Positions 37,824-41,653 of a stretch of DNA of 46,829 nucleotides are shown piece after piece. The notes beneath the pieces were generated by a model. That model made no database searches, was not told where the DNA came from, and was given only the letters and a program-made list of their open reading frames with translations. The stretch spans positions 1-46,829 of the forward strand of contig NZ_BCSR01000023.1 of the NCBI RefSeq assembly GCF_001570965.1. The letters run 5' to 3'. The translations under genes and the position numbers were made by a program. This DNA comes from Janibacter corallicola NBRC 107790 (lineage in GTDB: Bacteria > Actinomycetota > Actinomycetes > Actinomycetales > Dermatophilaceae). Position 1 is the stretch's first letter; each line of letters starts with the position of its first letter.

Positions 37824-37898
37824 TCAGCTGTTCGGCTTCTTGCCGTGGTTGGCGGCATTCTTCTTGCGTGCGCGACGCTTCCGGGAACGCTTGCTCAT
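37824..37898 (-). CDS. Ribosomal protein bL37 (24 aa)
   Basis: A very short gene missed by usual length limits. It encodes MSKRSRKRRARKKN followed by AANHGKKPNS and a stop. The basic first half and the ANHGKxPN end match the actinobacterial ribosomal protein bL37, known from mycobacterial 50S structures. GAGGAG at 37905-37910 is six bases before the ATG, and a strong terminator follows the stop, so it has its own transcription unit. It lies divergent from the NIDWA peptide gene. The family call rests on memory of the mycobacterial protein. Confidence 0.9.
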   Translation of the reverse strand: MSKRSRKRRARKKNAANHGKKPNS

Positions 37899-37998
37899 TG
37901 GTGTCTCCTCACTGTGGACTTCCCCCCGGTGAGCGGGGATCCAGATGCCCCAATTCAAACACACGGGCAAGGTCACGGTTTGGTCAGAGAGTCGGCGA

Positions 37999-38015
37999 CC
38001 CTCGTTATGCGAGGG
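37999..38015 (+). promoter_or_regulatory. Inverted repeat in the NIDWA gene leader
   Basis: CCCTCG, TTATG, CGAGGG is a perfect six-base-arm inverted repeat 22 bp before the NIDWA start. A -10-like TATGCG (38006-38011) lies inside it, with TTGGTC at 37980-37985 as a possible -35 (20-bp spacing). It may be an operator or a leader hairpin. No ribosome site is visible before the ATG. Confidence 0.4.
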
Positions 38016-38037
38016 GTCTGGCTGGCATCATGGAACC

Positions 38038-38268
38038 ATGAAGAAGACGATTGCTCCCCTCATCGCCGCCGCCACACTCTCCCTGTTCTCGGTCTTCTCG
38101 ATCGGTAGCCAGGCCAACATCGATTGGGCCATGACGACTGACAACATCGACTGGGCCCAGGTCACTGACAACATCGACTGGGCCCAGGTCACTGACAACA
38201 TCGACTGGGCGCTCACGACCCAGAACATCGACTGGGCGCTCACGACTGACAACATCGACTGGGCATAA
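38038..38268 (+). CDS. Secreted NIDWA-repeat peptide (76 aa)
   Basis: An N-terminal Sec signal (MKKTIAPLIAAATLSLF followed by SVFSIGSQA) has a likely cut after Ala26. What remains is 50 residues made of six NIDWA units joined by five four-residue linkers: MTTD, QVTD, QVTD, LTTQ and LTTD. No Cys, basic residue or other domain is present in the mature part. The ATG is chosen because it follows directly with MKK; an upstream in-frame ATG would add a poor start. No Shine-Dalgarno sequence is visible. Two membrane HD-GYP-like genes follow in the same direction. I do not recognise a described family; roles such as a pheromone precursor or receptor ligand are inference. Confidence 0.85.
   Translation: MKKTIAPLIAAATLSLFSVFSIGSQANIDWAMTTDNIDWAQVTDNIDWAQVTDNIDWALTTQNIDWALTTDNIDWA
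38116..38265 (+). repeat. 27-bp tandem repeats encoding NIDWA units
   Basis: Five full 27-bp units plus a 15-bp end, in the frame of the peptide. Each unit starts AACATCGA(C/T)TGGGC. Units two and three are identical, and units four and five differ by few bases, so the array grew by recent duplication. Confidence 0.95.
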
Positions 38269-38316
38269 CGACTGGTCTCCACTGCGCAACGGGCAAGGGA
38301 GTCGCACTCCTCGACC

Positions 38317-39528
38317 TTGCCCTATGTGGTCGCGGTTGTTGCGTGCGCACTGGCGGCCATCGTCGTCGTCGGTGTCTGGGAGGGCTTCACACAGCGGCTG
38401 AGTTGGTTCTTGGCGCTGCTGGCACTCAGCGTCATGGGGGCTTTGGGGCGCCCGCAGGCGATCGGGTCGATCAGCATCTCTGCCTCGGGCATCGTCCAGT
38501 TGACGGCCATTCCACTGGTCGGGCCCATGGGGGCCGCGATTGTTGGAGCCGTCCCTGAGCTAGCTGCTCCCCGTGAGCCCATCAAGCGCATTTTCAACGC
38601 GGCCCAGCGCGTTCTCCTTGTCCTTGCGGGAGGGGTCGCGTATCGGATGTTGGGAGGCGGTCCACTCGGTTACGGGCAAGCCGCCCAGAGTGATGTACTC
38701 GATCTCGCGTGGCGCCTTGGCCTTGCGACTCTGGTGGCGGCGCTGGCGAACGCAGCGCTTGTGGCCGGGGTCCTGACCGTTAGTTCTGCAGGGTCCTTCC
38801 GCGCTTTCGCCGTCGACCTCGTCAAGCAGGCAATCCCGGCGTACGCCATGTACTGGGTTGCCGGATACGCCCTCGCCGTCCTCTGGGCGCCCGCCGGTCT
38901 GGGCTGGGTGTCCGCGGTCTTCTTCTTCCCGTCGCTGTACGTCATCCAGTGGGCGTTGGCGCAGCACGCAGCGGTCTGGTCGGCTCGGCACGAGATCCTC
39001 AACCCCTTCGTCGTGGCGCTCGACGAGCGGTACCCGGGCGCGCAGCGGGAGAGCGAGCTCGTCGCAGGTGCCGCCACGGCGATCGCCAACACCCTCGGGA
39101 TCAAGCCCGGTGACGTCGACCATGTGGCGATCGCTGCCCAGATCCGCGACGTCGGCAAGCTCGCGCTGGACCAGGAGCCCGAGGCCATCCAGCGCCGGGA
39201 CCACGCAGGGGCGACCCGACGGGTCCTGTCCGACATCTCCTTCCTGGCCCCTCCGCTGGACATCGTGGTCAGCCACCACGAACGGGTCGACGGCCAGGGC
39301 TGGCCGGAGGGTCGTGCGGGCGGCTCCATCCCGCTGGGCTCCCGGATCCTCGCCGTGGCCGAGACCTGGGCCGACCGCCTCCTCGAGACCGACGACGCCG
39401 AGGCGGCGGTGGTCCGTTGCGAGACCCTCGTGGGCACCGGTCTGGACGGGCGGTGCGTGGCCGCCCTTCGCCGCGCCCACGAGCGCGACCGGCTGCCGGC
39501 GGCCGGAGGCACGAGGAGGCCGTCATGA
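38317..39528 (+). CDS. Membrane protein with degenerate HD-GYP-like domain (first of pair)
   Basis: About 403 residues from a TTG start; GTG at 38326 is also possible. Residues 1 to about 215 hold roughly six hydrophobic segments, a sensor-like region. Residues about 240-375 resemble HD-GYP: the HD motif reads RD (277-278, QIRDVGK), while the later HHERVDGQGWPEG (320-331) and IPLGSRILAVAE are kept, and His296 matches the HPxxG His. Thus the metal site is incomplete. Its frame is the same as the NIDWA gene's, with only one stop (TAA) between them. The membrane half has lower GC and rarer codons than the HD half. It overlaps the next gene by ATGA. Function unknown. Confidence 0.75.
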   Translation: MPYVVAVVACALAAIVVVGVWEGFTQRLSWFLALLALSVMGALGRPQAIGSISISASGIVQLTAIPLVGPMGAAIVGAVPELAAPREPIKRIFNAAQRVLLVLAGGVAYRMLGGGPLGYGQAAQSDVLDLAWRLGLATLVAALANAALVAGVLTVSSAGSFRAFAVDLVKQAIPAYAMYWVAGYALAVLWAPAGLGWVSAVFFFPSLYVIQWALAQHAAVWSARHEILNPFVVALDERYPGAQRESELVAGAATAIANTLGIKPGDVDHVAIAAQIRDVGKLALDQEPEAIQRRDHAGATRRVLSDISFLAPPLDIVVSHHERVDGQGWPEGRAGGSIPLGSRILAVAETWADRLLETDDAEAAVVRCETLVGTGLDGRCVAALRRAHERDRLPAAGGTRRPS

Positions 39529-40766
39529 CGGCGGTGCGCGGGAGCCACGCCGGACTGGTCCTCTTCCTCGTGGCGCTGCTCGTGGGGGGCTGGACCACCA
39601 TCGCCGGCGAGATCACCGCAGACGGCGTGACGCCGTGCGTGATCACCGCTGTCATCGCGATCATCATCGGTGAGCAGATGCCCACCGCGATGGCGGGGCG
39701 CGTCATCGCGCCCGTGACCACCGCCGCCGCGACCGGACTGGTCATGGCGCCCCCGGGGGAGGGCCTGGCCCGACCTGCCGCGGTGGGCGTCATCTGGCTG
39801 GCGATGCTCGCGGGTGTCCTCATCGCCCGCGTGCGCGGCAGGCCCCTCTTCGAGAGTGCGCTGGGGGCGCGCTTCCTCGGCATCGCCACGACGGCACTGC
39901 TCGTCCGCGGCCTCGGTGACAGCACGCTCGTGCAGTGGGCCTTCGCCGACGGGACGCGGCGGGCCCTGGCCGTGCTCGCCCTCTTCGGTGCGGCCCTGGT
40001 CGGAGGTCTCGTCGAACGCCTCCTCGAGGCACTCGTCGTGTGGCTGCGCGAGGGGATCACCATCGGGTCCTTTGCCGCGCGCGAGCCGAGCTCCCTCTAC
40101 GGCATCGTCGGGGTCACCGCCTCCGCCGGGTCCCTCATCGCCGTGGCCCAGCCGGTCCTGGACTGGGTCGCCTACCCGCTCCTGCTGCTGCCGGTGCTCC
40201 TCACCCACCTGGCCGTCCAGCGGGCGGTGGCGATCCGCCTCACCCTGGACGAATCCGTCCATGCCCTCTCCCGCCTCACCGAGGCCGCCGGCCGGAGCCA
40301 CGAGGGGCACGGCGCCCGGGTCGCGGACCTGTCCGTGCGGATCGGCCGGGCCATGGGTCTGGACGCACACGAGCTGCGCAAGGTGGAGCGCACCGCGCTG
40401 CTGCACGACGTCGGCCTCATGGGGATCGAGGAGCCGATCCCCGGCGGCGCGACGATCAACGCCTCGACGCAGGTCCAGGACCGCGCCGCGGAGGCGGGCA
40501 CCCGCATCGTCTCCTCGAGCCCTCAGCTGCGCCCCATCGCGGCGATGCTGGACCAGGTCCGCACGCCCTTCCGTATGTCGCGGGAGTTCGGTGAGTTCAT
40601 CCCCGTCGCGGCGCGGATCGTGCGCGTGGCCAATGCCTGGGACGACATCACGGAGGGCACGCGGACCCAGCGTGCCCACCAGGTCGCGCTCGAGCGGCTG
40701 CACCTGGGGCTCGGGTACGACTACGACCCGGAGGTCGTGACCGCCCTCGAGCGGACGCTGGGGTGA
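39525..40766 (+). CDS. Membrane protein with degenerate HD domain (second of pair)
   Basis: 413 residues from the ATG that overlaps the previous stop; ACGAGGAGG lies upstream. About six hydrophobic segments span residues 10-235. The C-terminal HD domain keeps His262 (GHGARVADL), His294 and Asp295 (LLHDVGLMG) and AWDD near 371-374, but the HH-E-GYP part is missing (AAMLDQVRTPF at about 339-349). So the residues missing here are those kept in the preceding protein and the reverse. Typical HD-GYP proteins break down cyclic-di-GMP, but this copy lacks a full site. It probably acts with its partner. Confidence 0.8.
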   Translation: MTAVRGSHAGLVLFLVALLVGGWTTIAGEITADGVTPCVITAVIAIIIGEQMPTAMAGRVIAPVTTAAATGLVMAPPGEGLARPAAVGVIWLAMLAGVLIARVRGRPLFESALGARFLGIATTALLVRGLGDSTLVQWAFADGTRRALAVLALFGAALVGGLVERLLEALVVWLREGITIGSFAAREPSSLYGIVGVTASAGSLIAVAQPVLDWVAYPLLLLPVLLTHLAVQRAVAIRLTLDESVHALSRLTEAAGRSHEGHGARVADLSVRIGRAMGLDAHELRKVERTALLHDVGLMGIEEPIPGGATINASTQVQDRAAEAGTRIVSSSPQLRPIAAMLDQVRTPFRMSREFGEFIPVAARIVRVANAWDDITEGTRTQRAHQVALERLHLGLGYDYDPEVVTALERTLG

Positions 40767-40836: not shown

Positions 40837-41238
40837 TCAGCCCTGCTTGGTCTCCCAGAAGATCTTGTCGATCTCGGCGATCTTCTCGAGCAGCTCGTCG
40901 GCCTTGGCCTCGTCGAACTCACCCTTCGTGCCGGAGGCGCCGGCCAGCTTGGTGGCCTCGTTGACGAGGGTGTGCAGCTGCGGGTACTTCTCGAAGTGCG
41001 GCGGCTTGAAGTAGTCCGTCCACAGCACCCACAGGTGCTCCTTGACCAGCTGGGAGCGCTGCTCCTTGATGACCACGGCGCGGGTGCGGAAGTCCGGGTC
41101 GTCGCTGTCGTTGGCCTTCTTGATGATCATCTTGACCGACTCGGCCTCGATGCGGGCCTGGGCGGGGTCGTAGACGCCGCAGGGCAGGTCGCAGTGGGCG
41201 CTGACCTCGGTGGGGCGGAAGATGTCGCGAAGTCGCAT
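40837..41238 (-). CDS. sodN: Nickel-containing superoxide dismutase SodN
   Basis: A 133-residue NiSOD precursor. The nickel hook HCDLPCGVYDP begins at His15; the first 14 residues (MRLRDIFRPTEVSA) are the propeptide removed before His binds nickel. The rest is the four-helix bundle with KKANDSDD and EHLWVLWTDYFKPPHFEKYPQLH. It detoxifies superoxide in the cytoplasm as a hexamer. GAGAGGAAGG lies upstream of the ATG. sodX is upstream with 64 bp between, and it supplies the processing protease. Confidence 0.96.
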   Translation of the reverse strand: MRLRDIFRPTEVSAHCDLPCGVYDPAQARIEAESVKMIIKKANDSDDPDFRTRAVVIKEQRSQLVKEHLWVLWTDYFKPPHFEKYPQLHTLVNEATKLAGASGTKGEFDEAKADELLEKIAEIDKIFWETKQG

Positions 41239-41302
41239 GTGTGCCTTCCTCTCGTAGGTGGCGTTTCAGCCGTCGAAGTACCCGGCGGCTTCACTGCCAA
41301 AC

Positions 41303-41653
41303 CTACCCCGCGGGGTCGGCCCCGTCACGCAAACCCCTTCTCTTGCAAGGTAGTCGCATTATCACGCGTGCCAGGACGTCCTCCGGGGCGATCGATCCGA
41401 CGAGCCAGGAGTCGACCCCGACCCGGGGGTTGTCCCGCTCGATCCACCACCGGGAGGAGTCCATCGGATCCCTTCCCGAGAGCCGCTTGACGGCGATCGG
41501 TCGCTCGGCGCCGTGCTGGTCGCGGGGGAGGCGGACCACGGCGAGGGAGCCGAGCCTCGGACGAGCTCCCCACAGCACGAGCAGCAGGGCACCGTCGCGG
41601 AGCGTCGGCTCCATCGATCGCCCGACGACACGGGCCAGGCCGGGATGAGGCAT
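41303..41653 (-). CDS. sodX: Nickel-type SOD maturation protease SodX
   Basis: A 116-residue S26-family (signal-peptidase-like) protein. The nucleophile is in VVGRSMEPTLRDGALLLV (Ser) and the general base in IAVKRLSGRD (Lys). It lacks a membrane anchor, as expected for an enzyme that cuts the SodN propeptide in the cytoplasm. The C-terminal tail (RLPCKRRGLRDGADPAG) is basic and not part of the usual core. ATG start at 41651-41653. It is divergent from the malic enzyme gene. Confidence 0.92.
   Translation of the reverse strand: MPHPGLARVVGRSMEPTLRDGALLLVLWGARPRLGSLAVVRLPRDQHGAERPIAVKRLSGRDPMDSSRWWIERDNPRVGVDSWLVGSIAPEDVLARVIMRLPCKRRGLRDGADPAG

Follow-up and report, generated by a model that had tools for sequence, protein, structure and literature searches.

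We analyzed a 46,829-nucleotide stretch of DNA from Janibacter corallicola NBRC 107790 (contig NZ_BCSR01000023.1; the whole stretch is referred to as the window), in which a small gene for a 76-amino-acid peptide precursor (38038..38268, plus strand, ATG start) is followed by the genes of two membrane proteins with HD domains, HD1 and HD2. We propose that the C-terminal tail of the precursor, made up of NIDWA units in this strain, is the released ligand of the HD1-type membrane sensor and that these genes form a peptide signaling module. We give this reading a probability of about 0.7; within it, we infer the release of the tail, its binding, the direction of the response, and the output. The preliminary description of this DNA had pointed to the same layout; that observation was right, and it reaches much further than was seen at the time.

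The precursor with a signal peptide and six NIDWA units was confirmed at 38038-38268. The predicted Sec-type signal peptide, MKKTIAPLIAAATLSLFSVFSIGSQA (38038..38115, plus strand), combines a charged start, a 12-residue hydrophobic stretch (Kyte-Doolittle hydropathy, 2.2), and S-Q-A before unit 1, where cleavage would take place. The units follow on the same strand at a 27-nucleotide (nt) spacing (38116..38130, 38143..38157, 38170..38184, 38197..38211, 38224..38238, and 38251..38265), the sixth being the C terminus of the precursor. Summed over 15 unit pairs, the units, whose patterns were chosen on the protein sequence, carry 16 differences at 35 synonymous sites and 0 at 190 nonsynonymous sites, and the linkers vary at both kinds of site (12 per 28.7 synonymous and 34 per 91.3 nonsynonymous). 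Because the units differ at synonymous sites only and the linkers at both, the NIDWA repeat is maintained at the protein level. The ORF shows coding conservation, the lack of which in relatives would have counted against the preliminary description. A chance repeat or an array kept at the DNA level was also considered for this open reading frame (ORF) and is rejected by the same restriction of unit differences to synonymous sites. The precursor is encoded in a single copy in its genome (the sole other match had an E value of 0.38) and matched no Pfam or NCBIfam family.

The precursor ORF ends 48 nt before HD1 (38317..39528, plus strand; Pfam HD_5, E value of 1e-14), an HdgA-type protein whose TTG start codon is uncertain. 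As had been described, two membrane HD proteins lie on the strand of the precursor with an ATGA overlap: HD2 (39525..40766, plus strand), which is HdgB-type, begins within the end of HD1 and also matches HD_5 (E value of 1e-9). HD1 joins an ECF-S/MASE9-like membrane sensor half (approximately residues 1 to 220; 38317..38976, plus strand) to an HD domain of the HD-GYP kind (residues 235 to 353; 39019..39375, plus strand; Pfam match). An AlphaFold2 model of HD1 reached a predicted local distance difference test score of 87.9, and its residues from about 1 to 199 match ECF S-components (VIA-align); the membrane half is thus predicted to have the S-component fold. The MASE9 model (PF20972) did not match the window HD1 and scored above its cutoff in 5 of 10 relatives (L210, L212, L225, L162, and L025). 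HD1 carries RDVGK in place of the HDxGK of HD-GYP proteins and retains HHERVDGQGWP; HD2 retains the HD motif, and the HD2 consensus has no HHExxDGxGYP. We extracted HD2 from 147 of the 155 curated loci introduced below. L116 and L124, from two genera, have HD1 and HD2 fused as a single ORF (1,017 and 1,054 amino acids), and because of this fusion the two proteins probably act together, possibly as a heteromeric sensor.

Of 58 related genomes, 42 contain a match to HD1, as do 172 of 186 genomes of the family. HD1 loci gathered from whole genomes were reduced to 155 Actinomycete loci with distinct HD1 sequences, and a precursor ORF lies 5' of HD1 in 141 of them, a count obtained from 121 in a relaxed automatic test, minus 2 dropped, plus 22 recognized solely by reading (L077 is a weak case). 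A strict test was positive in 89 of 153 loci; its controls were positive in 242 of 7,650 shuffles, in 7 of 153 cases when the opposite strand was used, and in 4 of 149 windows taken farther upstream. The 14 loci counted as lacking a precursor are nine Streptomyces-like loci, L070, L174, L198, L199, and L116, which stops at a contig end with 180 nt of upstream DNA and cannot be judged. Two named Streptomyces loci (L209 and L228) likewise showed no peptide ORF. Genomes without HD1 provided a weak control: the bL37 anchor pattern matched in none, the last 1,200 nt of each locus were read instead, and in the 12 sigR loci read (of 14) two flagged ORFs look like chance. The preliminary description had regarded the lack of a peptide upstream of homologous HD genes as evidence against its proposal; a peptide is present in these 141 loci and in the deeper groups described below.

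The form of the precursor differs among lineages. Within Janibacter, the units 5' of HD1 are lineage specific: NVDWA (7 and 10 units), NVEWA (6 units), NVDWV (5 units), SWDWA (4 units), and also NWEWA-like, GADWA, and SVDWA. By reading, every Trp after the signal peptide falls inside an exact unit in L001, L008, L010, L014, and L076. Of 30 repeat precursors tried, 29 yielded units (L132 did not); when these were pooled, the proportions of synonymous (pS) and nonsynonymous (pN) differences were 0.458 and 0.016 in units and 0.446 and 0.357 in linkers. The units are identical within 22 of the 29 precursors and divergent in 7. Tail sequences in the Actinomycete loci are diverse (TWTWGG, GWGWGG, LDGWQW, VSWED, VGWNPT, ANWRW, and GWSWW, for example), and in several lineages the tail is repeated (RGWEWRG, FIGWNPTGR, GYTWQG, AWSWGPQS, and GYHNWEPKA). 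In L074, two separate precursor ORFs lie approximately 140 to 390 nt 5' of HD1, each with several exact GYHNWEPKA repeats. The last Trp is at most 3 residues from the end in 108 of the 141 precursors, and 84 carry WxW or WW. The repeat-unit form first described was borne out in Janibacter and several other lineages, but it is the minority form, and Trp is common rather than universal.

The strongest indication of what the tail does comes from the genus g363. In three genomes of this genus, the leader MKRIAFLLASLAALVLGGGA is unchanged and the tails are wholly different (FTKM, SYVVSR, and LKIPTQ). In 100-nt blocks, identity is approximately 74 to 90% just upstream (lower in the first block, at the edge), rises to 98 to 99% at the leader start, and falls to 25 to 60% past the leader. 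Over 11 kb per locus, the upstream homology (81 to 85%) of each of the three pairs extends to the final leader base and no further; 58 to 59 of 60 nt are identical before this boundary and 12 to 19 of 60 after it. Homology returns about 4.6 kb further on, at 75 to 78%. The intervening block runs from the first tail codon into the gene of a BTAD regulator (L389, 3626-8263; L390, 3585-8188; L391, 3595-8230) and encodes the remainder of the peptide; the HD-GYP sensor, with 10 to 65% identity per 60-residue block and the highest values in its HD half; a second protein, which has no Pfam match; and approximately the first 720 residues of the 1,100-residue regulator. The N-terminal part of the regulator has weak NTPase and TPR matches, and the BTAD transcriptional activator domain lies in its C-terminal part, where every block except the last has 70 to 93% identity. 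Tail, sensor, second protein, and the input half of the regulator are therefore exchanged together as one block. It was because of this exchange that we raised our estimate for the tail as a ligand to the value given above, and likewise our estimate for the widest form of the proposal given below. Constancy of the leader and the output, combined with the swapping of tail, sensor, and regulator input, is the pattern to be expected of a signaling specificity type; the blocks look like pheromone types, and the break at the leader end would mark the beginning of the active tail. The earlier suggestion that the peptide is sensed by the HD proteins gains strong indirect support from the joint exchange of tail and sensor, and binding itself is what we infer.

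The association extends beyond the Actinomycetes. A search of the phylum matched 93 of 296 genomes at an E value of 1e-80. Among the deeper Actinomycetota loci read, which are best matches rather than a random draw, a small ORF precedes the HD gene in 46 of 49 assessable loci. The best 30 loci comprise 29 that can be assessed (L310 cannot be judged), 27 of them with a peptide of 20 to 27 amino acids, and 19 of 20 further full-length matches down the list have a peptide, one of them (L387) weak; L317, L321, and L375 are negative. In L300, L301, and L303 to L307, the whole 20- to 23-codon peptide gene is present in two tandem copies with identical tails, an alternative way of multiplying the product, beside repeated units. 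HD1-like proteins also occur in a Clostridiales metagenome-assembled genome (MAG; L210) and an Atribacteria MAG (L212), each preceded by a small Trp-tailed ORF. Among the named full-length loci, L215 cannot be judged, and 7 of the 12 assessable loci have the peptide (L206, L207, L208 [weak], L210, L211, L212, and L225); the other 5 (L221, L224, L262, and the two Streptomyces loci) do not.

When a class search was centered on the Clostridiales MAG, 31 of 196 genomes gave a match. A peptide precedes the gene in all 24 full-length-sensor loci of this type examined; the automatic test detected 17 of these peptides, and the other 7 were recognized by reading. The typical precursor has 25 amino acids, with a hydrophobic leader ending in AGGA (MKKIIxILxTxLSLxLAGGA) and a variable short tail (HASWL, HQTWF, GWNWR, GFFWW, NFTLI, GFKVV, and others). 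In 16 peptides of exactly 25 amino acids, picked by eye, positions 13 to 20 have a mean of 0.59 bits and the tail 2.15. Ten close pairs, also picked by eye, gave a pN/pS of 0.23 for the leader and 0.29 for the tail, with 45, 19, and 95 differences at the three codon positions. These codon statistics show that Clostridiales-type precursors are under protein-level selection. HD-GYP genes with other sensors had no peptide in any of 11 loci, three of them without upstream DNA, by a one-criterion test, which in two groups with peptides detects 17 of 24 and 18 of 28, fewer than reading. The gene order in L210 and L212 is hpf, an unnamed gene, the peptide, HD-GYP, DUF5317, and secA; hpf was identified by Pfam in L210 and by eye in L212, and secA by Pfam in L212 and by eye in L210. 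The DUF5317-type membrane protein 3' of the HD-GYP gene was recognized by Pfam in these two loci and by eye in many of L340 to L362, with secA following it in several loci. DUF5317 may also belong to the module.

As to the output of the sensor, HD1 has a full set of HD-GYP residues in all 24 loci L162 to L185 and in the nine Streptomyces-like loci; in f35, two HD-GYP positions are altered in 2 of 11. All 15 Janibacter loci have Arg in place of the HD His of HD1. Of 58 genomes searched, 19 gave a match to GGDEF (PF00990). None of 16 Janibacter genomes (a few of them incomplete) did so, and no match was obtained in several other family members with the HD pair. Given the loss of the HD His and this lack of GGDEF matches, we rejected the hydrolysis of cyclic di-GMP (c-di-GMP) as the Janibacter output. 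A c-di-GMP role is likely ancestral and, judging from these genes, is gone in Janibacter while the peptide and the sensor persist.

According to our model, the N-terminal helix would bring the precursor to or through the membrane. The active part would be the short C-terminal tail: the NIDWA units in the Janibacter strain and approximately 4 to 9 residues elsewhere. Where an A-x-A or AGGA site exists, signal peptidase would cut after it and free the tail outside the cell. HD1 (HdgA), which probably works as a pair with HD2 (HdgB), would then receive the tail in a pocket of its ECF-S-like (MASE9-type) membrane domain that opens to the outside, and this binding would change the cytosolic HD domains. 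With an intact HD-GYP site, binding would set phosphodiesterase activity; in Janibacter, with Arg for His and no GGDEF gene found, the proteins would have to act otherwise, most likely by protein contact. In its widest form, to which we give somewhat better than an even chance, the proposal describes an undescribed, ancient class of peptide signals. Micro-genes of approximately 20 to 30 codons, longer and repeat bearing in some Actinomycetes, would release tails of about 4 to 9 residues read by ECF-S-type (MASE9) receptors coupled to HD-GYP domains, in Actinomycetota and Clostridia-like bacteria. Orphan sensors such as HdgA would gain a gene-encoded ligand, the specificity types would be exchangeable, and lineages without c-di-GMP would have kept the peptide and lost the enzyme.

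The chief doubt about a released ligand is export: a clear hydrophobic helix is seen in 71 of the 141 Actinomycete precursors, 51 are intermediate, and 19 have none. The joint exchange of tail and sensor would suit a subunit as well as a ligand. The peptide could be an unreleased membrane microprotein of the HdgA/HdgB complex, its tail contacting the sensor in the same cell. The fixed adjacency of the two genes agrees with such an arrangement, as do the many precursors that amount to one helix and a short tail, and leaders of the amphipathic MKKIVSAVEQFL type could rest against the membrane from its inner side. Yet up to 10 identical units and tandem precursor genes are odd for a one-to-one subunit, the 19 precursors lacking a hydrophobic stretch fit it poorly, and the sharp boundary after AGGA or GGGA resembles a cleavage site. 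We regard the subunit as unlikely, albeit as the alternative that survives best.

The position of a short ORF directly 5' of the HD genes on the same strand would also be expected of a leader that controls these genes, and perhaps secA in the Clostridiales type, through ribosome arrest or Trp supply; in L210 and L212, secA is two genes past the HD gene. Trp leader peptides of actinobacteria are resembled by the precursors of L078, L082, L108, L139, and L124, which contain WWW and have no hydrophobic leader; these may use another route or mechanism. Against control by a leader, the non-Trp residues of the window units are fixed (the 0 of 190 nonsynonymous versus 16 of 35 synonymous given above), and six to ten spaced repeats suit neither an arrest motif nor an attenuator. 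Moreover, the tail has no Trp in 24 of 70 deeper-group peptides (12 of 27 and 5 of 19 in the two Actinomycetota sets and 7 of 24 in the Clostridiales type), no Rfam match was found in 9 loci, and the folding z-scores of seven stretches are modest (-0.2 to -2.7). Such a leader is improbable. Slightly less probable still is a tail that serves as the core of a modified peptide, with its Trp prenylated as in ComX or cross-linked by enzymes encoded elsewhere. A leader with a variable Trp core and the Sec-less precursors recall those of ComX and of ribosomal natural products, and WxW or WW is frequent, as noted; but no modifying enzyme was found among the scanned proteins of the window or the scanned neighbors in L210, L212, and L389 to L391, and tails such as FTKM have no Trp. 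That the peptides are antimicrobial or host directed, with a sensor that merely regulates or protects, is very improbable: the Janibacter precursor is predicted to be secreted, repeated, and Trp rich, but NIDWA and NVDWA are acidic and have no basic residue, unlike typical Trp-rich antimicrobial peptides, and the gene stays beside one type of sensor across very large distances.

The start codon of the precursor is supported by relatives, as TGGCAT[C/A]AT lies immediately 5' of it in 13 of 14 Janibacter loci. In the window, this conserved -10-like element, TGGCATCAT (38023..38031, plus strand), is 6 nt before the start codon; it is a probable leaderless promoter by its conservation and position, which would account for the weak Shine-Dalgarno sequences. 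A sigma-70 consensus scan gave no match at 38023..38031, and no terminator-like site was found within 37890-38420. An imperfect palindrome, GACCCTCG-TTATG-CGAGGGGTC, is located at 37997-38018, 5' of the peptide gene, where a repeat finder (at least 12 nt) gave no inverted repeat; near this position, L003 and L005 have different short inverted repeats, as seen by eye. The neighbors of the precursor are the HD pair, SigR, RsrA, SodN, and an S26-type peptidase. The stretch with the precursor, HD1, and HD2 is flanked by minus-strand genes, with sigR-rsrA on one side (models SigH_actino and antisig_RsrA), beside which stands a gene that we take to be bL37-like, and sodN on the other. The nickel superoxide dismutase gene sodN and the S26-type peptidase gene occupy 40837-41653 on the minus strand; the peptidase scored 36.8 bits against the sodN maturation protease model, below the cutoff of 63.25.

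Among known systems, ComQXPA has, as generally understood, a hypervariable Trp-centered tail (ComX) beside a polytopic sensor, the two being exchanged together as types; it differs in that no ComQ-like or histidine kinase gene was found among the seven scanned window proteins. Part of the peptide family likewise resembles AgrD in its amphipathic leader and variable C-terminal core, but these seven proteins include no AgrB-type protease, and NIDWA has no Cys or Ser (and so no thiolactone Cys). The ECF transporter S-components (RibU, FolT, ThiT, and NikM/CbiM) share the predicted fold of the HD1 membrane half, which differs from them in being fused to an HD domain. To our knowledge, no kind of peptide signaling described so far has this receptor or this peptide family. 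The nearest analogue in logic is XIP/ComR, in which a small ORF adjoins the receptor and the C-terminal end is active. In the parts of a published account that concern them, ComS/XIP-ComR and SHP-Rgg have a small ORF beside the receptor, a short precursor, and an active C-terminal end, with WW in type II, and the C-terminal WW motif of XIP is required for activation in S. mutans (PMC5131902). The receptor there is cytosolic and DNA binding, whereas here it is a membrane HD-GYP sensor with no adjacent Rgg-type gene.

The preliminary description knew of no family with this layout. As to the HD pair, this did not stand: S. venezuelae HdgA/HdgB (vnz24090/vnz24095) consist of a membrane HD-GYP protein followed in the same operon by a membrane HD protein without the GYP residues, according to the section of the paper that describes them (PMC6205966). 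The window pair, a membrane HD-GYP gene with a degenerate HD-GYP membrane gene in its operon, likely represents their orthologues, on the basis of this architecture and of the RsrA-like ORF that, by eye, adjoins the Streptomyces-like loci. The pairs differ in that the nine Streptomyces-like and two named Streptomyces loci have no peptide ORF and that the catalytic His is missing from the window HD1. Between rsrA and hdgA, seven loci of the Streptomyces-like L186 to L194 show, by eye, a recurrent AACGTGCTAATCCGCGGGT-like element. The passages on HdgA/HdgB in two papers state that these genes are poorly expressed and that their deletion had no detectable consequence on standard medium, and those passages report no signal (PMC6205966 and PMC13232838); the word "peptide" is absent from both main texts. 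As to the peptide, in the titles and abstracts of the open-access literature, we found no paper that joins the HD pair, or HD-GYP proteins in general, to a peptide signal or peptide pheromones to c-di-GMP. The open-access literature gave nothing for SCO5218 or TM0504 and one unrelated paper for MASE9.

The ligands of the MASE-type membrane sensors on c-di-GMP enzymes are an open question. In the portions that bear on it, a 2022 census of c-di-GMP signals counts MASE domains (e.g., MASE1) among the sensory domains without a discernible physiological purpose and mentions peptides once, in connection with periplasmic binding proteins (PMC8846402). If the micro-gene encodes the ligand, the MASE question would become testable with synthetic peptides of four to nine residues in many genera. 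The system, if our reading is true, would be one of peptide communication through a membrane HD receptor, rather than through a kinase or a cytosolic Rgg/Rap protein, and would span Clostridia-like bacteria to Actinomycetes, being easily overlooked because its genes are below the size limit of most gene finders. Janibacter would then offer a natural case of an HD sensor retained where c-di-GMP synthesis was not found.

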